Shown here: positions 1,844 to 19,462 of the stretch, in pieces
Layout of the letters: every line of letters begins with the position of its first letter
Numbering within the stretch: the first letter of the stretch is position 1
Origin: Verrucomicrobiota bacterium
Lineage (GTDB): Bacteria; Verrucomicrobiota; Verrucomicrobiia; Limisphaerales; UBA9464
Direction: 5' to 3'
Assembly (NCBI GenBank): GCA_017309115.1
Contig: JAFLEF010000022.1
Location: 46,803 to 110,802, forward strand
DNA length: 64,000 nt
Notes under the pieces: generated by a model
What the model was told of the DNA's origin: nothing
The model's database searches: none
What the model saw: the letters and a program-made list of their open reading frames with translations, nothing else
Translations under genes and position numbers: made by a program

Positions 1844-4800
1844 CTACAGTTGGCGGCGGTGGATTTTTAGTTCCACGTCGCCGAGGTCGAGGGGGGCACT
1901 GGTCGGAGAATCGTTGGGGTCGGGCTCGGGAATAATGACGCTTTTGGCGGTCTCACCCCGCCAGTCGGCTGCGCGCACATTCCCGGGCCAGGGATACTTG
2001 TGAACCACTTCGGCGGGCAGGGCGGTGAGGAGGAGTTGATATTCGCCAGGGGGTACACCCCGCACTGTAAAGCGGCCGTCGGCCTCCACGACTACGGTGT
2101 AATTGGCGTGTTGTCGGGTCTGGGCACGTCCGGCGGCCGATTGGTGCCAGGTTACCCACCACAGTTGACGGGCTTCCTCCGACAAGCCGGCGGGTGGTTC
2201 GACGACGGGAAGCCTTCGGCTGAGATTTCGGGCGGCGATGTGTTGGCGCCAATCGGTCACGGGGATTGCTTCGGAAGACTTCAGCCGGCCCACCACCTGG
2301 CGACCGTGGGGATCAGGTTCGCCCATGACCCCGCGGGTTAACTCTCCGGCGGAAACGCTGACCTTGGTTTCCTCGGAGAAGGGAATACCCGGACCGGAAT
2401 TGAGATAGAGGCGGAAGTCGCCCTCGGGAACACGGTCGATTCGGAACTGACCTTCGGAGTCGGTCTTCGCTTGGAACGCGGCAACGTCCAAAGACACGGC
2501 GCCGGAATAGTAGCTATAACTGGGATCTGACAATTGGACGATCTTTGCCGCCTGCGGTTGGCCTTCGTGGAGCAGGACACCCTCGATGGCTCCAAAGGGC
2601 TGCAATCGAATCATGGCCGGCGCGTTGCTGCGAACGGAAGTGCGGCCGAATCCGTGCGGTGAGACCGCCGCCACGGTGTGAGGCGTTAGGACGACGGGGA
2701 ACGCAAACCGGCCCTGGCCATCTGCGTTAGTGACGAAACTGTCGCTGTGCCTCAGAAATCGTTCGCGGCCGAGCATCGCGGACTTCTCCAAAGTGCACAG
2801 GACGACCTCCGCCCCGCCGGCGGGCGAGCCGTCCGGGTTGAACACAACGCCGCGCACGCCGCCCTGGGGATTCGCTCGGCGGAGCTGGAAGTCGCAGCGG
2901 GGTTCCCCGTTGGGTCCGGGTTCCGGATAGCCCACCTCGGTTTCGTAACCCTCGGCCTCCAACCGGATGACCGGTTCACCCGCTTCGCTGAACCGGAGCT
3001 GATAAACGCCGTTGGTGCCATAATGCAATTCACTGCGATCAAAGTTGGGATGCTCCCGACTCTGTCCGGGAATGGCTTTGAATCGTCCGACGGGTTGGCC
3101 GTTGTCCGCATCGACTACGCGGCCGGTGACTCGCAGGGCGGGCTCGAGCATGATGGTGTGTTCGACCTCCGGATCGATCGCGAGCGGGAATTGACGACGA
3201 TATCGGTAGTCGGGCGCATAGGCGGTAAACGTGAAGGTGCGGTCGGGCGGCGCACTGCGCCACGTGACGCGTCCGTCGTCGTCGGTTTTGCCATCCCAGC
3301 CCAGCGCGCCGTCGCCGAAGCCGTCCTCCAAAACGAGGGTGGCTCCGGGGATTGGTTCGCCCTGGGGGTTCACGAGACGGGCGCGGAGAACGCCTCCCGG
3401 GTCCAGTTGCACCCGCGCGGCCGCACCGCCGGCTTGGACGCGAAATTTTCGAGGGGCATAACCGTCCGCGCTAGCAATGCACATGACTTCGCCGGGAGGC
3501 AGGGAACCCAAGCCAAACTGCCCCAGGGTATCAGTGAAGACTGCCCGCTCATGCCAGGAGGTTCCGATGCGTGCGCCGGCGATCGGTTCACCGAGGCCAT
3601 CCACGACCTGTCCCAAGGCGAGCGTACCCAAGCGCAGCGGGGTGACGATCTTCCGAGAACGCAGCCCGGCGAATCGTTCCCGGCCGGCGGCGGTATCATC
3701 GTCCCGCGAAACCGAGAGCATGGTCTTCACGTAATCCGGATGTTCGAACTCGAAGGAAAAATACCCCCGGTCCGGCGGGATCGTGGAACACAACCAGCGT
3801 CCCTGGTCGTCCGTTGTGGCCAGCCGAAAACGGCGCATGAAGCCCAGCCGTTCGCGGTCCTCCTCCGGTTCCCGCGCCGTACTGTCGCCCACGCCGTACG
3901 CGAGCCAGACGGTGACTCCGGCGAGTGGCTGCTGCTGCTCGTTCACGACCTGTCCTCCCACGGTTTCTGCACGTCCGAGCGCAAGGGTATGAGCATCCGG
4001 CCGCGGATATTGCCAGTCTGAGCGCCACGTGAAGAAGCGGTTCTCGTAACCCGGGAAATGCGCTCCGGCATCCAGGCGCATCAGGGTGCCGCGGGGCAGG
4101 GGAATCACGCACTCGCCGTTGGCATCGGTCTCCCGGTCGTCGGGGGTGAGCCACTCGCCGTTAGAAACGAGGTTCAGCAGGACCTTGGCGCTGGGAAGGG
4201 GCAAGCCGGTGTCGGCGGCGACGACCCGCAGGCGGAAGGATTCCGTGCCGTTCAATCGAGGGGCCAATCCCGAGGTTTGGGTCATGGCCGGCGAATCGGA
4301 AGATGCCAGGTCGGCGACGGGTGTCGGGTTGGTTGGAGTTTCTTTCGGGGACAGGAAGACGAACACGAAGGCCGCGATCAACGCCGCACTGCCGACCAGC
4401 GCGGCGGTCCAGATTCGTTGGGTTCGGCGCCACGCCTCCAGTGTCTGCTTGGCGAGTCCAGCGGCCACACCCGCGGGCGCCCCGCCGGCGACTACGCCTT
4501 CCGTGATGCTGGCCGCCAAGCCCGCGGGCGGCGCCGCGCTGAGGCGGTCGGCAAGTTGCACGGCCAGTAGAGCGACGGTCAGGGTGACGCCGTGGTGAGC
4601 CAGAAGGCTACGGAGCTTCTCCAGAGCCCGGTTCACCCGCTTTTTGGCCGCCTCTTCGTTCAGACCTAGGGCCAAACCGACTTCGCGATGGTTCCGTCCT
4701 TCGGCGAAGCGGAGCAGTAGGGCGTTGCGGTCGGATTCGCCCAGTCGGGCGAGTGCTTCATCGAGTTCGGGAGCGATTCGGCTCCAGTGGGGATCGGCGG

Positions 4801-5113
4801 CCTGAAGTTGCTGCATAGCGAGGGCTTCCTGTTCCCGTCGCTGCCGCCGGATCTCGGCCCGCAAGGCGCGGGTGGCGATGAACCGGGTGGTGCGGAAGAG
4901 CCAGCCGGCAAGCACGAGCTTCGGACCAAACGAACCCGCCTTGCGGGCCAGCAGGAGGAACACGGCCTGGGCCACGTCGGCGGCGAGGGCGTCGTTGTTC
5001 ACCTGACGGCGGGCGGCGGCGTGGACGAGCCCGAGGTGGCGTTCGACCAGTTGGGCAAACGCGGCCTCCGAGCCGGTCCGGGCGTAAGTGTCGAGCAGTT
5101 GCCAGTCTTCCAT
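1844..5113 (-). CDS. ECF sigma factor fused to a transmembrane helix and carboxypeptidase-regulatory repeats
   Basis: A 1089-residue protein. Residues about 1-172 are a sigma-70 family ECF factor: region 2 (AFAQLVERHLGLVHAAARRQ..DVAQAVFLLLARKA) and region 4 (LDEALARLGESDRNALLLRF, then a helix-turn-helix around HREVGLALGLNEEAAKKRV). An Ala-rich linker leads to one hydrophobic segment (about 237-258, IWTAALVGSAALIAAFVFVF). The rest is a series of about seven or eight beta-sandwich repeats of the CarboxypepD_reg type, with G-x-V-x-D/N..G-x-P-x-x-G-A-x-V cores and later FGLGSLPPGEV-like strands. The order implies a sigma domain in the cytoplasm and an extracytoplasmic sensor in one chain. Long C-terminal extensions on ECF factors are known in Planctomycetes and Verrucomicrobia; the signal and the release mechanism are unknown. 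Confidence 0.88.
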   Translation of the reverse strand: MEDWQLLDTYARTGSEAAFAQLVERHLGLVHAAARRQVNNDALAADVAQAVFLLLARKAGSFGPKLVLAGWLFRTTRFIATRALRAEIRRQRREQEALAMQQLQAADPHWSRIAPELDEALARLGESDRNALLLRFAEGRNHREVGLALGLNEEAAKKRVNRALEKLRSLLAHHGVTLTVALLAVQLADRLSAAPPAGLAASITEGVVAGGAPAGVAAGLAKQTLEAWRRTQRIWTAALVGSAALIAAFVFVFLSPKETPTNPTPVADLASSDSPAMTQTSGLAPRLNGTESFRLRVVAADTGLPLPSAKVLLNLVSNGEWLTPDDRETDANGECVIPLPRGTLMRLDAGAHFPGYENRFFTWRSDWQYPRPDAHTLALGRAETVGGQVVNEQQQPLAGVTVWLAYGVGDSTAREPEEDRERLGFMRRFRLATTDDQGRWLCSTIPPDRGYFSFEFEHPDYVKTMLSVSRDDDTAAGRERFAGLRSRKIVTPLRLGTLALGQVVDGLGEPIAGARIGTSWHERAVFTDTLGQFGLGSLPPGEVMCIASADGYAPRKFRVQAGGAAARVQLDPGGVLRARLVNPQGEPIPGATLVLEDGFGDGALGWDGKTDDDGRVTWRSAPPDRTFTFTAYAPDYRYRRQFPLAIDPEVEHTIMLEPALRVTGRVVDADNGQPVGRFKAIPGQSREHPNFDRSELHYGTNGVYQLRFSEAGEPVIRLEAEGYETEVGYPEPGPNGEPRCDFQLRRANPQGGVRGVVFNPDGSPAGGAEVVLCTLEKSAMLGRERFLRHSDSFVTNADGQGRFAFPVVLTPHTVAAVSPHGFGRTSVRSNAPAMIRLQPFGAIEGVLLHEGQPQAAKIVQLSDPSYSYYSGAVSLDVAAFQAKTDSEGQFRIDRVPEGDFRLYLNSGPGIPFSEETKVSVSAGELTRGVMGEPDPHGRQVVGRLKSSEAIPVTDWRQHIAARNLSRRLPVVEPPAGLSEEARQLWWVTWHQSAAGRAQTRQHANYTVVVEADGRFTVRGVPPGEYQLLLTALPAEVVHKYPWPGNVRAADWRGETAKSVIIPEPDPNDSPTSAPLDLGDVELKIHRRQL

Positions 5114-8983: not shown

Positions 8984-9408
8984 GGGTTGGGAGGAATGAC
9001 GGGTGCTTGGGGATGCCGCCGCCGCAGGTCGTCCCACAGGGCGCGGCCGGTCTGATCGGTCTCGGCGGGGGTGAATCCAGACTGATGAATCAGCTCGGGC
9101 AAGGTCAGCGCATCCTCGACCACGGGGGTTCCGGTCAGGGCGGCCGCACAGGTCATCGCTGCGGCGCTGCTGTCGAACTGGGCGCAATGGCGACGGACGG
9201 ATTCCGGCAACGCGAGGAACAAATAGTAGTGCAGCCAGGTCCCGCGGCGGGTCAGGACGAACGAGCAGTTGCGGGCCTGGGGATCGTGCGGGGCAATACC
9301 GTCCTGAACCCACATGTACGGCCCACGGCCGGCGGCATTTCCGGTGAGTTGACCCAACTCCAGCAATTGGAAGTCGCGATAGTCGTTGGTCAGCGTGCGG
9401 GCATTCAT
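8980..9408 (-). CDS. Uncharacterised 142-aa protein in the sulfur-redox operon
   Basis: 142 residues from MNARTLTNDYRDFQLLELGQ; the start is fixed by a 4-base overlap with the end of the CoA-disulfide reductase gene, and its stop overlaps the thioredoxin start by 4 bases. No signal peptide or membrane segment is seen. Three Cys residues occur (NCSF, RHCA, MTCA), with a conserved-looking central piece GPYMWVQDGIAPHDP and LHYYLFLALPES. I do not recognise the family. The double overlap makes it an integral member of the operon, so a part in sulfur or thiol redox chemistry is a fair inference only. Confidence 0.75.
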   Translation of the reverse strand: MNARTLTNDYRDFQLLELGQLTGNAAGRGPYMWVQDGIAPHDPQARNCSFVLTRRGTWLHYYLFLALPESVRRHCAQFDSSAAAMTCAAALTGTPVVEDALTLPELIHQSGFTPAETDQTGRALWDDLRRRHPQAPVIPPNP

Positions 9409-11102
9409 GCGGCGGCAACCGTCGGCAGCAAACCCGCGTCGGTGACCGTTTTCCAGGTCAGATACGCGCCGGACAGGTTGGCAACCCGATACCCGTGTTG
9501 CTGCAGGACTTGGCAGGCGTAGTAGGACCGTTGGCCGGAGGCGCAGTACACGACCCAATCCCGAGACGGATCCAGTTGAGCGAAGTGTTCCCGCAGTTCA
9601 GGGAGGGGAATGTGAACCGATCCCGGCACGGCGCCCCGGGCGCGTTCTTCGGGGGAGCGGACATCCAGCAACCCCACACCCGCAGCCAGTCGCGCGGGCA
9701 GTTCGTGCCATTGGACGACGGCGACGCGATGTTCCTGCAGGTTTTGGGCGGCCATCCCGATGAGATTCACCGGATCCTTCGCGGAGCTAAAGGACGGCGC
9801 ATAGGCCAGTTCGAGTTCAGCCAGATCATCAACGGTCAGTCCGGCCTGCAGAGCCGTGGCGAGAACGTCGATGCGCTTGTCGACGCCGGCGGGACCGACG
9901 CCTTGCGCGCCTAGCAGACGTCCCGTGTCCGGATCGAAATGAATCTTGAGCGTCATTCGTTCCGCGCCGGGGAAGTATCCGGCATGGGAACCAGAGTAAA
10001 TCTGGACGGATTGGTGGGCTCGGCCGACGCGCTGCAGGGCGCGTTCGTTGGCGCCAGTGCACGCGGCGGTCAGGGAAAATAGCCGAAGGATGGCGGTGCC
10101 CCAGGTACCTCGATAGGAATCCACCCGGCCGAAGATGGAATCGGCGGCGAGGCGTCCCTGACGATTGGCCGGGCCGGCGAGCGGAATGAGCGCCAGCTGG
10201 TCCGTCACCGGATCCTGGACTTCCACGGCATCGCCAACGGCCCAGATATGCGGGTCGCTGGTGCGCATGTGGGCATCGACGGCGATGCCGCCGGTAGTTC
10301 CGAGACGAAGACCGGCGGCGCGCGCCAGCGGAACGTCCGGACGCACGCCCAGACCGAGAATCACCAGGTCGGCGGGGAGACGTTGACCGCCCTTCAGGAC
10401 GACCATCGAGGCTCGGGCCTCCGACTCGCTGGCGGGCGCTTCAAACGCCGCCACTCCGTTGTTCAAATGCAGGCTGACTCCCTGTTGTTTCAGCTCCGCT
10501 TGAAGTAGGGCGGCCAACTCCGGGTCGAGCGGCGCCATGATTTGGGCCTGCGCTTCGACCACGGTTACGGCCAGACCGCGCCGGTGCAATTGCTCGGCCA
10601 TTTCCAGTCCGATGTAGCCGCCACCGACCACCACGGCCCGGCGGACTTTGGGGTCCTGGAGCCACGTTTGAATTTGGTCGGCGTCGCCCAGGTTCCGGAC
10701 GACAAAGTGGCCGGCTCGGTCAATGCCGGGAATGGGTGGCCGCAGCGGGGCGGCGCCGGTGGCGAGGATGAGGGAGTCGTAGCGCTCGGTGAACGTGTCG
10801 CCGGTGGCGAGTTGGCGAACGACGATCTCCTGCCGGTCGGGATGAACGGACACCACTTCGTGGCGCGGGCGGACATCCAGATTGAAGCGGGCGTGGAGGC
10901 TGGCGGGAGTTTGAACCACCAGATTTTCCCGTTCCTCGATTTCGCCGCCGACGAAGTAGGGCAGACCACAATTGGCGAAGGAGACATCCGGTCCGCGCTC
11001 GAACACGACGATCTCGGCTGTTTCGGAGAGGCGCCGGGCGCGAGCGGCGGCACTGGCGCCACCGGCCACGCCACCCACGATCAAGAGTCGGTGCGGTTTC
11101 AT
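9405..11102 (-). CDS. CoA-disulfide reductase/NADH:persulfide oxidoreductase with C-terminal rhodanese domain
   Basis: 565 residues. FAD Rossmann motif GGVAGGASAAARARRLSE at the N-terminus; redox Cys45 in SFANCGLPYFVGGEI, typical of the single-Cys CoADR/Nox/Npsr group; NAD(P) motif AVVVGGGYIGLEMAEQL; second FAD motif WAVGDAVEV; dimerisation domain to about residue 450. A rhodanese domain follows (about 470-560, LLDVRSPEERARGAVPGSVH) with catalytic Cys520 in VVYCASGQRS. CoADR-rhodanese fusions reduce CoA persulfide/disulfide and polysulfide with NAD(P)H. Its place between a DUF2892 protein and a thioredoxin supports reactive-sulfur detoxification or sulfur assimilation. Length is normal for the fusion. 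Confidence 0.9.
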   Translation of the reverse strand: MKPHRLLIVGGVAGGASAAARARRLSETAEIVVFERGPDVSFANCGLPYFVGGEIEERENLVVQTPASLHARFNLDVRPRHEVVSVHPDRQEIVVRQLATGDTFTERYDSLILATGAAPLRPPIPGIDRAGHFVVRNLGDADQIQTWLQDPKVRRAVVVGGGYIGLEMAEQLHRRGLAVTVVEAQAQIMAPLDPELAALLQAELKQQGVSLHLNNGVAAFEAPASESEARASMVVLKGGQRLPADLVILGLGVRPDVPLARAAGLRLGTTGGIAVDAHMRTSDPHIWAVGDAVEVQDPVTDQLALIPLAGPANRQGRLAADSIFGRVDSYRGTWGTAILRLFSLTAACTGANERALQRVGRAHQSVQIYSGSHAGYFPGAERMTLKIHFDPDTGRLLGAQGVGPAGVDKRIDVLATALQAGLTVDDLAELELAYAPSFSSAKDPVNLIGMAAQNLQEHRVAVVQWHELPARLAAGVGLLDVRSPEERARGAVPGSVHIPLPELREHFAQLDPSRDWVVYCASGQRSYYACQVLQQHGYRVANLSGAYLTWKTVTDAGLLPTVAAA

Positions 11103-11434: not shown

Positions 11435-11956
11435 TCAGGTGGGGTTGGGTGGCTGGAAGCCGGGCAGGCGGGGCAGGAATCGACCGGTATGTCGGGCGTA
11501 ATTGGCGTAGTCGGGAAAGCGCTGACGGAGCAGGCGTTCTTCCAGTCGGGATTTGGCTCCGAAGAATCCTCCCAGAACGACCAATCCCAATCCGGCCAGC
11601 CCACTTTGCCAGTACAGGGCCCAGGCGGCGGCGCCCAGCCAGACGCAACCGTACATCGGGTGGCGGATGTATCGGTAAACCCCGGTGCAAACCAGTTGGC
11701 CGCCTGCCCGGGGAACGGGGGACGGTGTGGTGGAACGGCCCAAAGCCAGGGTGGCGGCGATGCCCAATCCGGCTGAAACCAGTCCCAAGGCGACGGCCAA
11801 TCCAGTGGTGACCGGGCGGGGTTCGCCCCGGAAGGCGAGCGGGGCGGCGGCGATCCCGGTCAGCAGGATCAATTGACCAAGCACCCAGAGCCACGGACGC
11901 GTCTGCACAATGGACCGTGGCGCCGAGGCGGACCGAAGAACAAGCCGCGAATCCAC
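11435..11956 (-). CDS. Isoprenylcysteine carboxyl methyltransferase (ICMT) family membrane protein
   Basis: About 173 residues if the GTG at 11956 is the start; the frame stays open to 12091 but that part overlaps the divergent fusion gene. Several membrane segments (WLWVLGQLILLTGIAAAPLA; LAVALGLVSAGLGIAATLAL; VWLGAAAWALYW) are followed by the ICMT/PEMT signature: LVCTGVYRYIRHPMYG, then EERLLRQRFPDYANYARHTG and a C-terminal FLPRLP. The family uses SAM to methylate small molecules or lipid-like thiols; the bacterial substrate is not predictable. The palindromic operator lies between this gene and DUF2892, so the two are probably transcribed separately. Confidence 0.78.
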   Translation of the reverse strand: MDSRLVLRSASAPRSIVQTRPWLWVLGQLILLTGIAAAPLAFRGEPRPVTTGLAVALGLVSAGLGIAATLALGRSTTPSPVPRAGGQLVCTGVYRYIRHPMYGCVWLGAAAWALYWQSGLAGLGLVVLGGFFGAKSRLEERLLRQRFPDYANYARHTGRFLPRLPGFQPPNPT

Positions 11957-14900
11957 CGTGAAATTTGACAAAACGACAACCAACAGGTTGGGAACCGGTG
12001 ACGTTTCCCCTTCCGCGACGGCTTCGTTTCCGGCAGGCTTGGCAGCCGTGGATTCCGCTTTGGCTGCCCACTCGGGTCGGGCCGCCGCCAACGGGCATTT
12101 GTCCGTCGGCGGCCGCTTAAACGTGCCCCAATCTCTCGCGCTTTACCGGTCGATGTTCATGGCCCGGATGGTGGACCGGGTGGAGATGGAACTGGTCAAT
12201 CGCGGCGAGGCCTTCTTTCACGTCGGCGGCGCCGGTCATGAAGCTTCGGCCGTGCTGCAACACTTCCTGCGGCCGGATGACTGGCTGCATCTGCACTACC
12301 GGGACAAGGCGCTCATGCTCGCCCGGGGCATTCCGCCCGAGCAGTTTTTCCACAGCTTGATTTGTACCGCGGCGTCCCACTCGGCGGGCCGCCAGATGAG
12401 CGCGCATCTGAGCGCTCCCGAGCTGCACATCCTCAGCCTCGTCGGTCCCGTGGGGAACAACGCCCTCCAGGCGGTGGGCGTGGCGCATGAACTGCGAAGC
12501 CAGTCCCCGGAATCCACGTCGGTGGTGGTTTGCGCAGTGGGCGATGGGACGAGTCAGCAGGGCGAATTTCTGGAAGCGATAGCCGAAGCGGTGCGAGCCC
12601 GGCTGCCGGTGTTGTTTTGGATTGAGGACAATCGCCTGGCCATCTCCACCAGCACGGCAGGACGCACGTTTTACGATTTGCCGGACGGGGCGGCGACGGA
12701 GTTCTACGGGCTGCCCATCCACCGGCTGGATGGTCGCGAAGCCCTGGAGTGCGAACGTCAGTTGGCGCCGGTGATGCGCGGACTGCGCGAAGGGAAGGGG
12801 CCGGCCTTGGTGGTGTTCGAGGTGGATCGACTGACCCATCACACCAACGCCGACGACGAACGGATCTATCGGGGCGAATCGGAACTCAAACGCGTCCGCG
12901 GCACGAGCGATCCGGTCGAGATTTTAGCGGCCCAATTGCGCGAGGCGGGTGTCGCTGAGAGCGTATTGCGGGACTTGCACCAGGCGGTGGAGCAGGAGGT
13001 TCGCGCCGCGGCCGACCGTGCCCTGGCGGCCCCCAATCCGGAGTCCAATCGGGAGGCGCGGATGCCGCTGCCGCCGGGACTGGCGGAGCTCGCCGAACAT
13101 CGAGGAAGTTCCGAAGGCCCCCGCTACACGATGCTAGAGGCGCTGCGGGAAACCTTGCGGAGCTGGCTGGAGGCGGAATCGCGGGTGAGTTTGTTTGGTC
13201 AGGATTTGGAGGATCCCAAGGGGGATGTGTTTGGGCTGACGCGTGGCCTGTCGACTGCCTTCCCGGGTCGGGTGACGAATTCCCCGCTGGCGGAGAGCAC
13301 CATTGCCGGCGTGGGCATCGGTCGGGCCCTGGCGGGAGGTCGGCCGGTCTCTTGTTTGCAGTTCGCCGACTTTCTGCCCATCGCGTTCAACCAGATTGCC
13401 AGTGAACTGGGATCGCTGGGATGGCGCACGGACGGCGGATGGAAGGCCCCGGTGATTCTGCTGGCGCCGTGCGGTGGGTATCGGCCGGGACTGGGACCGT
13501 TCCACGCGCAAACGTTTGAAAGTCTGCTGACGCATGTTCCGGGTATCGACGTGGTCATGCCCAGCACCGCGGGCGACGCGGCGGGATTGCTCAACGCCGC
13601 CTTTCGCAGTCAGCGACCCACGGTGTTCCTGTATCCGAAGGTGTGCTTGAACGACCCGGCCGTGGGCACCAGCCGGGATGTCGCCGCCCATTGGGTTTTG
13701 CCGGGCAAGGCCCGTTGGATCACCCGGGGCGAGGCGCTGACCCTGGTGACGTGGGGCGGCACCGTTCCGCTGTGCCAGCGCGTGGTCACCGCGTTGCAGA
13801 GCGTCGGAGTCGCGGTGGATTTCCTGGATCTGCGTTCGCTGAGCCCGTGGGATTCCGAGGCGGTTTGTTCCAGCGTGGGCAAGACGGGTCGGTTGCTGGT
13901 GGTGCACGAGGACAATCTGACCTGCGGGTTTGGCGCCGAGATTCTCGCGACCGTGGCGGAACGAGTGTCCACTCCCGTTCGCGCCCGGCGAGTCACCCGG
14001 CCGGATACGTATGTGCCGTGCAACTACGTGAACCAGTTGGACGTGTTGCCGAGCTTCCGTCGGATTTTGGACACCGCCGCTGAGTTGTGTGGCGTTGACG
14101 TCAGTTGGCCCGAGGAAGCCGCCGCCGATGCGAGTGTGTTCGTATTGGAAGCCGTGGGCTCGAGTCCGGCCGACCAATCCGTGGCGGTGGTCGAATGGAA
14201 GGTGGCCGAAGGGGATCGCATTCAGGCGGGTGATCTGATTGCCGACTGCGAGGCGGACAAGGCGACGTTCGAGTTGCGTGCTCCGGTGGGCGGCGTGATT
14301 CGGGATCTGAGAGCGCCGGATGAAAAGGTCGCGGTGGGAACGCCTCTGGCCCGCATCCTCACCAATCGGGCGGCGCCGGTCTTGCCGAAGCGCATTCCCG
14401 TCGAGACCAAGCCGGTGCTCAAGGCCCGGACGCCTGAACGAACTGGTCTCCGCGCTCCGTTCGTTCAAGCCAATCCCATTCGCAGTCGGGAAGGTCGGGC
14501 GGTGGTGGCGCTGTCTTCCATTACGGCGGCGCCGGCCGGTCGGGTGGTCACCAATGAGGAGTTGGTGAAGCGCTTCGCCGGACGGTCCAGTCACGACATT
14601 CTGCAGCGCACGGGAATCGAATCCCGACGACTGCTGGCGCCCGGGGAATCGGCGCTCACGCTGGCCGCGAAGGCCGCCCGCGCGGCGCTCAAGTCGTCCG
14701 GGCTCGCCCTGGCGGATCTTGACGCGATCCTGGTCAGCACCAGCTCACCGTTGTCGATCAGCCCGAGTCTGGCGTGTCTGCTGCATCATGAGTTGAGTCA
14801 GGACGGTCCCACTCGGGATCTGCCGGCCAGCGACATCCTGGCGGCCTGCACCGGATACTTGTACGCCTTGCAGTCGGCCTTCGACTTCTGCCGCTCGGAA

Positions 14901-15470
14901 CCGGACGCGAACATCCTGGTGGTGACGGCCGAAGCGATGAGCACGTTCACCAATCACGACGACTTCGACACGGCGATCGTGTTTGCCGATGCCGCCACGG
15001 CGACCCTGGTGCATGGGCCCGAGTCACCGCACTTCCACCAAAGCCGCGCTTGGCTGCATCGTCCGGTGTTGAGCGCCCGAGGCGAGGACGGAACGATCCT
15101 GCATCACGGCCGGCGGGGTGATCCCAACGTGAACATGGACGGCCTGAAAGTCTTCCCGATGGCCGTTCGACAGTTGATTGCGTTGCTGAAACAAGCCTGT
15201 GCCGAGAGCGAGCTGTCGGTGGACGGACTCGATTACATCGTTCCGCATCAGGCCAACGGCCGCATCCTGGAAGCGGTCGATCAACGTCTGAAGCTACCCA
15301 AGGGCCGCCTTCTGAATCGGGTGAAGCACAGCGGCAACACCAGCAGCAGCTCCATTCCGCTGGTCTTGGCCGAGTTGCTGGCGGAGACGCCAAAGCCCAG
15401 CGGCACCGCCGGCCTGTGCGCCTTCGGCGGCGGCTTCACCTTCGGCGCGGCGGTGATGGAGTTTACCTGA
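11910..15470 (+). CDS. Fusion enzyme: 2-oxoacid dehydrogenase E1alpha-E1beta-lipoyl domain-ketoacyl-ACP synthase III
   Basis: 1186 residues in one frame. E1alpha (about 75-375): RSMFMARMVDRVE, HYRDKALMLARG, RQMSAHLS, and the thiamine-diphosphate motif from GDGTSQQGEF to LFWIEDN. E1beta (about 405-732): SLFGQDLEDPKGDVFGLTRG, SPLAEST, QFADFLPIAFNQI. Lipoyl domain (about 742-815): lipoyl Lys784 in CEADKATFE. KAS III (about 863-1186): Cys980 in AACTGYLYAL, His1113 in VPHQANGRIL, Asn1143 in HSGNTSSSS, so the full Cys-His-Asn set is present. No E2 catalytic domain or E3-binding domain is seen. The parts suggest decarboxylation of a (branched) 2-oxoacid, acylation of the lipoyl arm and use of the acyl group to prime fatty-acid or polyketide synthesis; that order is inference. 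ATG 11910 is the farthest start; GTG 11958 is possible. Confidence 0.88.
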   Translation: MDRGAEADRRTSRESTVKFDKTTTNRLGTGDVSPSATASFPAGLAAVDSALAAHSGRAAANGHLSVGGRLNVPQSLALYRSMFMARMVDRVEMELVNRGEAFFHVGGAGHEASAVLQHFLRPDDWLHLHYRDKALMLARGIPPEQFFHSLICTAASHSAGRQMSAHLSAPELHILSLVGPVGNNALQAVGVAHELRSQSPESTSVVVCAVGDGTSQQGEFLEAIAEAVRARLPVLFWIEDNRLAISTSTAGRTFYDLPDGAATEFYGLPIHRLDGREALECERQLAPVMRGLREGKGPALVVFEVDRLTHHTNADDERIYRGESELKRVRGTSDPVEILAAQLREAGVAESVLRDLHQAVEQEVRAAADRALAAPNPESNREARMPLPPGLAELAEHRGSSEGPRYTMLEALRETLRSWLEAESRVSLFGQDLEDPKGDVFGLTRGLSTAFPGRVTNSPLAESTIAGVGIGRALAGGRPVSCLQFADFLPIAFNQIASELGSLGWRTDGGWKAPVILLAPCGGYRPGLGPFHAQTFESLLTHVPGIDVVMPSTAGDAAGLLNAAFRSQRPTVFLYPKVCLNDPAVGTSRDVAAHWVLPGKARWITRGEALTLVTWGGTVPLCQRVVTALQSVGVAVDFLDLRSLSPWDSEAVCSSVGKTGRLLVVHEDNLTCGFGAEILATVAERVSTPVRARRVTRPDTYVPCNYVNQLDVLPSFRRILDTAAELCGVDVSWPEEAAADASVFVLEAVGSSPADQSVAVVEWKVAEGDRIQAGDLIADCEADKATFELRAPVGGVIRDLRAPDEKVAVGTPLARILTNRAAPVLPKRIPVETKPVLKARTPERTGLRAPFVQANPIRSREGRAVVALSSITAAPAGRVVTNEELVKRFAGRSSHDILQRTGIESRRLLAPGESALTLAAKAARAALKSSGLALADLDAILVSTSSPLSISPSLACLLHHELSQDGPTRDLPASDILAACTGYLYALQSAFDFCRSEPDANILVVTAEAMSTFTNHDDFDTAIVFADAATATLVHGPESPHFHQSRAWLHRPVLSARGEDGTILHHGRRGDPNVNMDGLKVFPMAVRQLIALLKQACAESELSVDGLDYIVPHQANGRILEAVDQRLKLPKGRLLNRVKHSGNTSSSSIPLVLAELLAETPKPSGTAGLCAFGGGFTFGAAVMEFT

Positions 15471-15478
15471 GTCATTCG

Positions 15479-16384
15479 ATGAGGCCCCAGAGACCCAAGC
15501 TGAGATCATCCGAGCATGACCTGCTTGGAGCCGCCAAGGCTGGGAGCCTCAAAGAACTTCAGCGTGCATTGGCTCGGGGAGCAGCGGTGGATGCAACCGA
15601 CAGGGACAAAGCTACCCCGCTGGTTCATGCCAGCGCCGGAGGACATCTGGCGCTGGTCCGACTACTCTTGGAAAGAGGCGCTCAAGCAAATCACAAGTGT
15701 CTTGGGGGAAACACCGCGCTGAGTTTTGCCGCCTACAACGGCCATGAGGAAGTTGTTCGCGAGTTGCTGGAAGCGGGCGCGCAAGTGAATGCCACCATCA
15801 TGACTCCGGCGGGAAATGTGCCGGTGCTGGTTTACGCGGCTGCGAAAGGCTACCGAGGAGTCGTCGAACTGTTCCTGAAGCACGGTGCCACATTGAACCC
15901 AAAGAAGGCAGAAGTACTGCCGCTGCAGATGACGGCAGAGACAACAAATATGGAGATGGTAAGCTACCTCTTGTCGGCGGGGGCTGATGTGAACGCCCGC
16001 CAAGATCTGTGTGGCTATACCTCCCTCATAAAGGCCGCGAGCAAGTCAACTGTAGAGATGGTTCGCCTGCTCATTGAGGCTGGGGCAGATGTGGATGCAC
16101 GGGACAAAATCGGCATGACGGCGTTGATGATCGCAGCGCGGCGCGGTGATCAGGAGATCGTCAAGGAGTTATTGGCTTCCGGCGCTGACGCCCGGATCGC
16201 CTACGAAGATCCGAATGGCAAACGGACCGCCTTAGACATGGCTCGGGAGTGTGATCGTTCTAAAGTCGCTAGGCTCCTGGAGAAATGGCAGGAAGTGACA
16301 CCCCGTCAGACACCTGTGGCGGCACGAGCGTCAGTTGTGGTCGCACAACCTGGAGCAGGACGTGGACGACGGACTGGTGTTTGA
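15479..16384 (+). CDS. Ankyrin-repeat protein
   Basis: 301 residues, starting 8 bases after the fusion-enzyme stop. After a short basic start it is made of about seven ankyrin units with the usual TPLVHASAGGHLALVRLLLE / GAQ-x-NHK...TALSFAAYNGHEEVVRELLE pattern up to about residue 265, then a Val/Ala/Arg-rich tail. No signal peptide. Ankyrin stacks bind protein partners; in bacteria they are frequent as immunity or effector-like proteins next to accessory genes. It is the first of three such genes in 4 kb. Codon use is less GC-rich than in the preceding gene. Confidence 0.85.
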   Translation: MRPQRPKLRSSEHDLLGAAKAGSLKELQRALARGAAVDATDRDKATPLVHASAGGHLALVRLLLERGAQANHKCLGGNTALSFAAYNGHEEVVRELLEAGAQVNATIMTPAGNVPVLVYAAAKGYRGVVELFLKHGATLNPKKAEVLPLQMTAETTNMEMVSYLLSAGADVNARQDLCGYTSLIKAASKSTVEMVRLLIEAGADVDARDKIGMTALMIAARRGDQEIVKELLASGADARIAYEDPNGKRTALDMARECDRSKVARLLEKWQEVTPRQTPVAARASVVVAQPGAGRGRRTGV

Positions 16385-16596: not shown

Positions 16597-17241
16597 ATGG
16601 CGCGAATACCTGGCAATACTGACTTCGAGTTCGAGTTGGCCGTTAAAGCCGGCAATACGAAACGAATACGAACATTAGTACGTCATAAAGCGCGCCCGCC
16701 CACGCTCTTGATGCTATATGCGTTGCTCAACAATCACCCGGAGTTGCTTCCCATCCTCAAGGAAGCCGGCTGTGATCCCAACGACAAAGATGGGTTCTCC
16801 ATGACAGCTCTGGGCTGCGCCATGGATCGCTATCCCATCGCTTTGGTTGAGCAGCTCCTTGATCTCGGAGCTGATCCTAATCAAGAGGCAACTCAGCTGC
16901 TGCCGCTGGTTACGGCAGCAGACGACGGCGAACTGGAGTTGCTTGAGGTTCTGCTGAAGGCGGGCGCCGATCCCAATAAGGCCCAGTGGAACGGGCTGCG
17001 TCCAATCCAGTCAGCCGCCATGCTGGGTTATCCTAAAGCACTCCGAAGACTCATTGAAGCGGGTGCCGATCCCTTGCTGTCCGGTCCAGCTGGCAAAGAC
17101 GTTTTCTACTTCGCTGCTCAGTCAAAGAATCCAGAGGTCATGGCGATTCTCGAGCCGTACCAGGCCAAGGTCGCCAAACCGAAGAAGCGACCCAGCTCCA
17201 AGCGCGCAGCGCCAAAGACTCAGAAGCGTAAAGCGAAGTAG
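16597..17241 (+). CDS. Ankyrin-repeat protein with basic C-terminal tail
   Basis: 214 residues. Five or so ankyrin-like units (FELAVKAGNTKRIRTLVRH; LPLVTAADDGELELLEVLLK; RPIQSAAMLGYPKALRRLIE) with GADPN turns, then a Lys/Arg/Pro tail from about residue 190 (KVAKPKKRPSSKRAAPKTQK). The tail is nucleic-acid- or acidic-partner-like; no function can be assigned. It follows a CGCAGATT repeat and stands apart from the next pair of genes by about 175 bases with no recognised feature. Together with its neighbours it forms an accessory patch. Confidence 0.82.
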   Translation: MARIPGNTDFEFELAVKAGNTKRIRTLVRHKARPPTLLMLYALLNNHPELLPILKEAGCDPNDKDGFSMTALGCAMDRYPIALVEQLLDLGADPNQEATQLLPLVTAADDGELELLEVLLKAGADPNKAQWNGLRPIQSAAMLGYPKALRRLIEAGADPLLSGPAGKDVFYFAAQSKNPEVMAILEPYQAKVAKPKKRPSSKRAAPKTQKRKAK

Positions 17242-18570: not shown

Positions 18571-19462
18571 ATGCCGCAACGCGAATTCAACTCGAACACC
18601 GCCGCCGAAATCGCTTTGTTGGATGCCTCGATTCGAGGCGACTTGCCACCGGTGAAAAGACCTGCTCGCTCAAGGACTCGACCCGAATACGCCCGACATG
18701 CGGGAGGATCCGTGGAATGTGACTCCGTTGATGCACGCGGCTGGAAACGGTCACCTCGAAGTTGTCGCGGAACTGCTTCGCGCCAAAGCCAAGGTCAGTC
18801 TGACCGACAAGAGCTTTCCTGGCGAAGGAGGTGGGGAAACTGCTCTGCACTATGCCGCCTTCAAGGGTCAATGCGGCACAGCCAAGCTCTTGCTGAACGC
18901 GAGAGCGGATGTGAACAAGGTGTCGCGGAACTCCGGAACTCCACTAGCTGTGGCGGTGGGAGAGCAGCAGTTGGAGATGGTCCAGCTTCTTTTGGAACAT
19001 GATGCTCTCCCCGACCTAGCCGGAAAGGCAACCGGGTGGACGCCGCTCCATGTCGCAGCTTTTGAAGGATTGTTTCAGTTGGCAAAGCGGCTAGTGGATT
19101 GTGGAGCCGACGTCAACGCGAAGGACAGTGGAGGGCAAACACCCTTCATGGATTCGACGCATAGCCCAAACTTGGAAACCGCATTTTTCCTCATAGATCA
19201 CGGCGCTGACCTTGAAGCAGCAGAGTCAGATGGAACCACTTGCCTGATGTGGGCCGTCATGAGCGAGAATGCCAAGCTGGTTACCGAAGTCCTGAAACAC
19301 GGCGTCAACGTCAACGCCTTGGATAGCGAGGGCCAGAGTGCCCTCGACTTCGCCATCCGGGACAAGTTGCCGGAGATTCAGGCACTGTTACGGAAGGCCG
19401 GTGCTAAGACCGGCGCGGAACTCTGTCCGCCCAAGAAAACCGCGGGCCGCAAGCTCCGGTGA
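18571..19462 (+). pseudogene. Ankyrin-repeat gene with a frameshift at an A run
   Basis: Frame 1 starts MPQREFNSNTAAEIALLDAS and continues IRGDLPPVK; after the AAAA run at 18655-18658 the protein continues in frame 2 as DLLAQGLDPNTPDMREDPWN and runs through about seven ankyrin units (TPLMHAAGNGHLEVVAELLR; TALHYAAFKGQCGTAKLLLN; TPLHVAAFEGLFQLAKRLVD) to the stop at 19462. Removing one A restores a continuous protein of about 296 residues, including the GLDPN turn of the first repeat. It could be a sequencing error, a true mutation or, less likely, programmed shifting. If translation starts at ATG 18698 a 254-residue protein lacking the first unit is made. Confidence 0.75.

Follow-up and report, generated by a model that had tools for sequence, protein, structure and literature searches.

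In the usual route to branched-chain fatty acids, a 2-oxoacid dehydrogenase complex makes acyl-coenzyme A (acyl-CoA), and the ketoacyl-acyl carrier protein (ACP) synthase III FabH then uses this acyl-CoA. Which route would a protein follow that carries the dehydrogenase and the synthase in a single chain and lacks the catalytic domain of the acyltransferase component (E2)? This question is raised by a gene at positions 11910 to 15470 of a 64,000-nucleotide stretch of DNA (in the following, the window) from a Verrucomicrobiota bacterium of the Limisphaerales (assembly GCA_017309115.1, contig JAFLEF010000022.1, positions 46,803 to 110,802 of the forward strand). Its product, here called the fusion, joins both halves of a thiamine pyrophosphate (TPP)-dependent 2-oxoacid dehydrogenase E1 (E1alpha and E1beta) to a lipoyl domain and a ketoacyl-ACP synthase III (KAS III). 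Judged from its sequence and from its relatives, the fusion is probably a single-chain, lipoyl-fed initiator of fatty-acid synthesis.

Layout of the fusion protein

The gene and its parts have the following window coordinates:

11910..15470, + strand: whole fusion gene, a single open frame of 1186 codons plus stop, from the ATG at 11910 to the stop at 15470
12144..13043, + strand: E1alpha domain, E1_dh at residues 79-378 (Pfam), with the TPP motif GDG211...N241 and His311
13128..14039, + strand: E1beta domains, Transket_pyr at residues 407-577 and Transketolase_C at residues 599-710 (Pfam), with Glu462 and His532
14181..14357, + strand: lipoyl domain, Biotin_lipoyl at residues 758-816 (Pfam); Lys784 is the lysine of EADKA
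14358..14510, + strand: variable linker from the lipoyl to the KAS III domain, about residues 817-867 (alignment), with no E3-binding domain listed
14511..15467, + strand: KAS III domain, residues 868-1186, with Cys980, His1113 and Asn1143 (Pfam, NCBIfam and alignment)

An earlier note, made from the letters of the window, had proposed this single-chain order of E1alpha, E1beta, lipoyl domain and KAS III, and the domain search confirmed it, as the Pfam domains follow one another in that order within the one 1186-codon frame. All of them score above their curated cut-offs, E1_dh at 136 bits, and the C-terminal matches are ACP_syn_III (residues 975-1040) and ACP_syn_III_C (residues 1097-1184). 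The best NCBIfam model is PRK09352, beta-ketoacyl-ACP synthase 3, at 246 bits (cut-off 249). The Pfam search, at E 0.001, gave no match to the E2 catalytic domain (PF00198) or to an E3-binding domain, in agreement with the earlier statement that the chain has no E2 catalytic domain. What makes up an E1 of the alpha2beta2 type is present (E1_dh, the transketolase domains, the TPP motif and the catalytic His and Glu), and the Biotin_lipoyl domain has in Lys784 the candidate lipoylation lysine expected of a 2-oxoacid dehydrogenase lipoyl domain. Across 62 fusions, the poorly conserved stretch 817-877, whose end covers the first ten KAS residues, varies in length between 50 and 89 residues. Residues 1-72 of the frame are unconserved (mean share of the majority residue 0.07-0.19 per 24-residue bin), so the true start may lie downstream of the ATG at 11910, one candidate being the GTG at 12123.

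Conservation of the fusion as a unit

The residues singled out in the earlier note, Lys784, Cys980, His1113 and Asn1143, are correctly named, and each is kept in 62/62 distinct fusion proteins. This set consists of 42 fusions, namely the window's own and 41 from loci L023-L073 (ten of these 51 loci, with partial or broken frames, were excluded), to which 20 more distant ones were added. In the TPP motif, Asn241 is kept in all 62 and Asp212 in 58, the other four having Glu. His311, Glu462, His532 and Arg131, which align with the E1 catalytic set and presumably have the corresponding catalytic roles, are likewise kept in 62/62.

A frameshift or an assembly chimera as the origin of the frame, which the earlier note had named as a danger to its reading, is unlikely and was rejected, as dozens of separate assemblies share the layout, among them the single-contig genomes G162 and G464. 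An internal TGA was at first reported for three loci; on rechecking, the aligned parts of L017 and L018 proved free of TGA, and L240, which is the same gene as L050, contains a single one, at query position 41 within the unconserved start.

A survey of the architecture in other genomes, which had been suggested as a check, found it repeatedly. Among the matches listed, the fusion is carried by 25 of 59 near genomes (the window's own and 58 relatives), broken by contig ends in two of them (G023, G026). An even sample of 387 genomes from across the Verrucomicrobiota, in which the two best candidates per genome were scored, contains it in 37; 35 of these are full by match, the window's own included, and two are in two pieces on different contigs. 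Twenty of these 37 were fetched for reading, the window's own genome being one further. In a named collection (80 of 91 loci), relatives occur on contigs labelled Verrucomicrobia, Thermoleophilia/Miltoncostaeales, Actinomycetota, Spirochaetales and, once, Acidobacteria; two contigs labelled Bifidobacterium breve and one labelled Akkermansia look mislabelled in our judgement. Many of the genomes are drafts, and those of the named collection are largely labelled as metagenome-assembled.

Over the 62 fusions, pairs that are more alike in the E1 part are also more alike in the KAS part (r = 0.90 between the pairwise identities, with 0/999 permutations as high), and therefore, as far as sequences can tell, the two halves have travelled together. 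In agreement with this, 42 fused KAS domains form one clade with support 1.0, and 75 E1beta stretches from fusion loci are monophyletic with support 0.938, although these stretches are labelled by locus number and one gene may be in twice (L247, L257). A tree of E1alpha plus E1beta rooted on the related chains described below gives the fusion clade a support of 0.888. Supports are from FastTree, and the KAS and E1beta trees were midpoint-rooted.

Loss of the coenzyme A adenine contacts

Superposed FabH structures show the adenine of CoA sandwiched by Trp32 and Arg151 and hydrogen-bonded to Thr28, and Arg36 together with two asparagines holding the phosphopantetheine, as described in the accessible part of the source (PMC4606726). 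The fused KAS domains were aligned with the E. coli FabH (L114) and with free FabHs, one per genome from 45 fusion-bearing genomes (25 near ones and 20 more), and the contact residues were read in E. coli numbering. Each of the adenine contacts Thr28, Trp32 and Arg151 is present in 0/62 fused KAS domains and in 45/45 free FabHs. Of the latter, 41 were scored by script, and the remaining four, which did not pass its motif filter, were inspected visually in the alignments; these four have His instead of Arg at position 36. A first comparison had already given Trp32 and Arg151 as kept in 25/25 free FabHs of near fusion genomes and in 0/42 fusions. At the position of Trp32, the 62 fusions have Asp (49), Ala (7), Glu (4) or Lys (2).

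The catalytic side of the domain presents the opposite picture. Cys112, His244, Asn274, Asn247 and Arg249 are kept in 62/62 fusions and Arg36 in 57/62, so the domain has the ACP_syn_III domains and the Cys-His-Asn set of FabH and lacks its acyl-CoA adenine contacts. Arg249, which we take to be an ACP-patch residue of FabH together with Lys214, is thus present throughout. As Arg36, Asn247 and Arg249 are kept and Thr28, Trp32 and Arg151 are lost, most contacts for any phosphopantetheine substrate, malonyl-ACP included, appear to be retained and those for the CoA nucleotide appear to be gone. The free FabH of the window's own genome, whose gene follows plsX (gene names by our reading), keeps the adenine contacts.

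Related chains with apparently exchanged acceptor domains

A related chain, mostly of about 1010-1180 residues (two frames are longer), occurs in 27 of the 387 Verrucomicrobiota genomes. These chains are 34-39% identical to the fusion over E1 and, in part, the lipoyl domain, and all 20 that were fetched from the 27 genomes end in an E2-like DH[RK]xxNG motif. Pfam lists E1_dh, both transketolase domains, Biotin_lipoyl and 2-oxoacid_dh (PF00198) in 4/4 tested. By domain content, they are E1alpha-E1beta-lipoyl-E2 proteins, in which E2 sits where the fusion has KAS III. In an E1beta tree, 75 fusion stretches, the 20 E2-type chains and one further locus, L139, form one clade with support 1.0, and 48 other E1betas fall outside. 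An early tree had placed L139 alone as sister of the fusions; with the 20 E2-type sequences included, this was superseded, and the sister group is the E2-type chains plus L139. No genome among the 387 was found to carry both kinds of chain, although the scoring covered two candidates per genome and the comparison is confounded by kinship.

We read these relationships as one E1-lipoyl lineage on which the acceptor domains have apparently been exchanged. That KAS III receives the acyl group is argued mainly from this exchange together with the lost adenine contacts.

The E2-type chains themselves probably make acyl-CoA for catabolism, because 8 of the 20 loci contain, close by, members of gene clusters represented by a FadB-like protein, an enoyl-CoA hydratase or an acyl-CoA carboxylase (one member of each such cluster was checked by Pfam). 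The usual E2 motif is DHRxxDG, and Asn in place of its Asp is unusual for an active E2; in the E2-type chains (L279-L298), Asn stands at this position in 20/20. L139 lies on the minus strand of a draft contig (G034:C48:1-6681), where a single-chain E1 is followed by a frame with lipoyl, E2, phosphopantetheine-carrier and type I ketosynthase domains that runs off the contig. It looks like a 2-oxoacid dehydrogenase loading a polyketide synthase in cis, and its E2 motif is DHRLIQG. Another E1alpha-E1beta single chain is found in three genomes of one genus, g6 (L181-L183 in G009, G015 and G021); it adjoins genes of the short-chain dehydrogenase/reductase and hydroxyacid dehydrogenase types in L181 and is followed by a lipoyl-type protein in L182 and L183. 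Each of these three genomes has one PF00198 match reported, on another contig than the chain.

Proposed reaction sequence

The reading to which we incline is that KAS III took the place of E2, so that type II fatty-acid synthesis is primed by direct transfer from the acyl-lipoyl group to the ketosynthase, without acyl-CoA anywhere along the way, as a third outlet of the lipoyl arm. If so, one E1 clade has three outputs, namely acyl-CoA through E2, an acylated polyketide carrier protein through E2 (seen once, in L139), and 3-oxoacyl-ACP through KAS III. Direct transfer to the KAS III cysteine had been put forward in the earlier note, and it now appears better supported, by adenine contacts found in 0/62 fusions, by sister chains with E2 in the same place and by two genomes (G001, G002) with the fusion and without detectable E2.

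The domain order, the intact active sites, the conservation as a unit, the loss of the adenine contacts and the kinship with the E1-lipoyl-E2 chains are read directly from the sequences; the steps below, the substrate, and membrane lipid rather than a special metabolite as destination are what we infer. In the first step, E1alpha/E1beta would decarboxylate a 2-oxoacid with TPP and acylate the lipoyl group on Lys784, with a branched-chain compound such as 2-oxoisovalerate as the likelier substrate. The lipoyl arm on its variable linker would then deliver the acyl group to Cys980 of the KAS III in the place of E2, bypassing acyl-CoA, and the KAS III would condense this group with malonyl-ACP; the resulting 3-oxoacyl-ACP would go into ordinary fatty-acid elongation. 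Finally, a free dihydrolipoyl dehydrogenase (E3) would reoxidize the lipoyl arm, as the L-protein does for the lipoyl arm of the glycine cleavage H-protein. E1 and KAS III both act as dimers of their units in known enzymes, and a dimer of the fusion chain would therefore hold two of each. In one respect, the earlier note went too far, as it spoke of a possible self-contained synthase: E3, the lipoylation enzymes and malonyl-ACP must come in trans.

Which 2-oxoacid?

A branched-chain substrate for the fusion's E1 is plausible. The E1alpha part scores 127 bits with the Thermus 2-oxoacid E1, which we take to be branched-chain specific, and 87 with the human branched-chain E1, compared with 77 for the best pyruvate E1alpha. 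The position of FabH Phe87 is Ser or Thr in 62/62 fusions, a replacement that we expect to widen the acyl pocket. An AceE-type E1 is present in 21 of the 25 near fusion genomes, and the window's own genome likewise has a separate pyruvate dehydrogenase (PDH).

The alternative that survives best leaves the transfer from lipoyl arm to KAS unchanged and replaces the substrate by a straight-chain one (pyruvate or 2-oxobutyrate), which would make the fusion an alternative source of acetyl or propionyl starters. It can draw on the E1beta part, which matches 1ik6 (deposited as pyruvate dehydrogenase) at 179 bits, about as well as the Thermus E1 at 178, and on G001 and G002, which have no AceE matches and still carry the fusion. 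The E1beta scores do not separate the two kinds of substrate. Against a branched substrate, the branched-chain E1alphas 1qs0 and 2bp7 score lowest, at 51 bits, below all pyruvate E1alphas listed. Given the E1alpha ranking, the AceE-type enzymes present beside most fusions and the Phe87 replacement, we nevertheless regard a straight-chain substrate as unlikely. The word branched in the earlier note met with mixed and indirect signs, the top E1alpha matches, the Phe87 position and the separate PDH speaking for it and the low 1qs0 and 2bp7 scores against it.

Among cultured Kiritimatiellae, even-numbered iso acids are major fatty acids, with i-C14:0 at 42% in Kiritimatiella, according to the accessible part of PMC7356697. 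Such acids would fit an isobutyryl starter if these species carry the fusion.

A separate E2 as intermediary?

Another possibility is that a separate E2, for example that of PDH, turns the lipoyl-bound acyl group into acyl-CoA, which the KAS III then uses like an ordinary FabH. Several observations favour this and count against direct transfer. E2 genes are present in 23 of the 25 near fusion-bearing genomes (none in two genomes, one in 16, two in six and three in one, each of two fragments in G031 being counted separately) as well as in 22 of 23 further ones, often with separate E1 genes, so that in these genomes the gene content is compatible with an E2 acting in trans. By sequence, the KAS III belongs to the FabH family, and the lost adenine contacts mean a poor grip on CoA at best and leave the acyl donor unspecified. 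The ACP patch is altered, as the position of Lys214 is K or R in only 13/62 fusions. The position of Asn210, one of the two pantetheine asparagines in our own mapping, is Leu, Pro or another residue in the fused KAS, and it is Lys or Arg in 41/41 free FabHs too. Supply of the other components does little to help the case for direct transfer: E3 is above cut-off in 20/20 tested genomes and in the window's own, and LipA in 20/21 (G012 is without it), but GcvH is found in 21/21, and since E3 and LipA also serve glycine cleavage, their presence is weak evidence.

The comparison of gene content between genomes with and without the fusion is of the same kind. Among the matches listed, a separate E1 with adjacent E2 was found in 4/25 fusion genomes and 19/34 others (p = 0.003), a difference confounded by kinship, whereas within the family the figures are 4/24 and 3/12 (p = 0.66). 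That the fusion replaces the branched-chain complex is therefore significant over the whole sample and not within the family, and it was not used as proof.

On the other side stands first the loss of Thr28, Trp32 and Arg151 in all 62 fusions, against their presence in all 45 free FabHs. Second, the same-genus drafts G001 (90% complete) and G002 (79% complete) contain the fusion, E3, LipA and GcvH, and profile searches of these drafts gave no E2 and no AceE match. Third, the sole E2 (PF00198) gene of the window's own genome, which adjoins an E3 gene, has its highest score with the PDH E2 model, although it does not reach the cut-off, and an AceE-type PDH E1 is present elsewhere in the genome; its assignment as SucB was ruled out on the same score. 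That E2 is absent wherever the fusion is present was rejected, as this holds for G001, G002 and the small draft G064 only; no E2 was found in G064, a fusion-bearing 1.5-Mb draft, and E2 is present in 18 of the 19 further fusion genomes reached through contigs not labelled Verrucomicrobia. Gene content accordingly supports work without E2 in the G001 and G002 drafts and weakly in G064, and is silent elsewhere. Taking both sides together, we think it quite unlikely that acyl-CoA is the intermediate.

It is improbable that the KAS III makes a special product, which would be either an acyl-ACP formed by mere transfer or a 3-oxoacyl unit destined for a secondary metabolite. In favour of such a role are the known KAS III-like acyltransferases, ChlB3 among them (PMC9573744, accessible part), and the cousin E1 in G034, which adjoins a lipoyl-E2-ACP-ketosynthase polyketide protein. 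Against it, the condensing Cys-His-Asn set is complete in 62/62 fusions, unlike the Cys-His-Asp of the acyltransferases, and the neighbours of the fusion, which were not searched by domain throughout, vary, some repeated ones resembling SerRS, LL-diaminopimelate aminotransferase and aconitase.

Relation to known systems and significance

With the branched-chain 2-oxoacid dehydrogenase complex (E1alpha2beta2, E2 and E3), the fusion has in common E1alpha and E1beta with their catalytic residues and a lipoyl domain carrying the lysine at which known enzymes are lipoylated; it differs in having E1alpha, E1beta and lipoyl domain in one chain, with KAS III in the E2 position and no E2 catalytic or E3-binding domain listed. 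With FabH it shares the family match to PRK09352, the Cys-His-Asn set, Arg249 and mostly Arg36, but it lacks Thr28, Trp32 and Arg151, has Ser or Thr for Phe87 and is joined to its presumed acyl donor. The E1alpha-E1beta-lipoyl-E2 chains of other Verrucomicrobiota have the same domain order and fall into the joint E1beta clade, but end in E2. As far as their sequences tell, the fusions lack features that define a complete 2-oxoacid dehydrogenase complex and others that define a FabH using acyl-CoA, and yet have the catalytic parts of both.

Two further systems are comparable in part. The KS III-like acyltransferases ChlB3 and CerJ also employ the KAS III fold outside ordinary acyl-CoA priming, but enzymes of this type have a Cys-His-Asp triad and perform transfer only, as stated in the accessible part of PMC9573744, whereas the fusion keeps Cys-His-Asn. 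The actinobacterial OdhA, like the fusion, combines decarboxylation and acyl transfer in one polypeptide, but its transferase is a succinyl transferase and no ketosynthase is mentioned in the accessible part of the source (PMC10415282). Among the titles and beginnings of abstracts listed from open-access literature, a scope outside which most subscription journals lie, we found no description of the fusion layout or of lipoyl-linked starter loading; the earlier note likewise knew of no named, characterized enzyme of this layout.

Direct transfer, if true, would represent a new mode of priming for fatty-acid synthesis, perhaps of branched fatty acids, and a shortcut around coenzyme A. Starter supply would no longer be tied to the acyl-CoA pool or to amino-acid catabolism, and a single protein could commit 2-oxoacids to lipids. 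The fusion would then be a compact module for (perhaps branched) fatty acids and one member of an evolutionary series of C-terminal domains swapped on one E1-lipoyl chassis. It also gives a testable lipid prediction for uncultured Verrucomicrobiota, Thermoleophilia and Spirochaetales.

Gene neighbourhood and other genes of the window

The fusion gene is flanked in the window by:

11438..12091, - strand: PEMT/isoprenylcysteine methyltransferase-like neighbour, divergent, running into the unconserved first part of the fusion frame
15467..16381, + strand: ankyrin-repeat protein downstream (Pfam)

The ankyrin-repeat gene was not taken as part of the system because the neighbours vary between fusion loci. 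The neighbour survey that the earlier note had called for was run: no conserved gene cluster around the fusion was found in either locus set and no biosynthetic cluster was noticed, although the neighbours were not searched by domain throughout and the gene calling was crude (long frames weighted by GC3), so that small genes may be missed. In the first locus set, ten clusters (C1-C10) and some others are confined to Thermoleophilia-type contigs, and further ones occur in 4-5 loci each, including genes like those of SerRS and LL-diaminopimelate aminotransferase; these names, as well as that of aconitase, were assigned by the look of the sequences. In the second locus set, shared neighbours are mostly found within one family, with N1 common to two families (f47, f54) and N3 common to three E2-type loci and one fusion locus.

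Downstream of the fusion, three ankyrin-repeat-like proteins lie close together on the + strand, the one listed above and those at 16597-17238 (by a weak NCBIfam match) and 18698-19462 (by eye). Upstream, beyond the methyltransferase-like gene, the minus-strand gene at 9405-11102 encodes a flavoprotein resembling CoA-disulfide reductase, below the cut-off for that enzyme, with a C-terminal rhodanese domain. Further upstream, the minus-strand gene at 1844-5113 encodes a protein of 1089 residues with N-terminal sigma-70 regions 2 and 4 followed by carboxypeptidase-regulatory-like domains, which would make it a sigma factor with a long C-terminal extension that may be exported.

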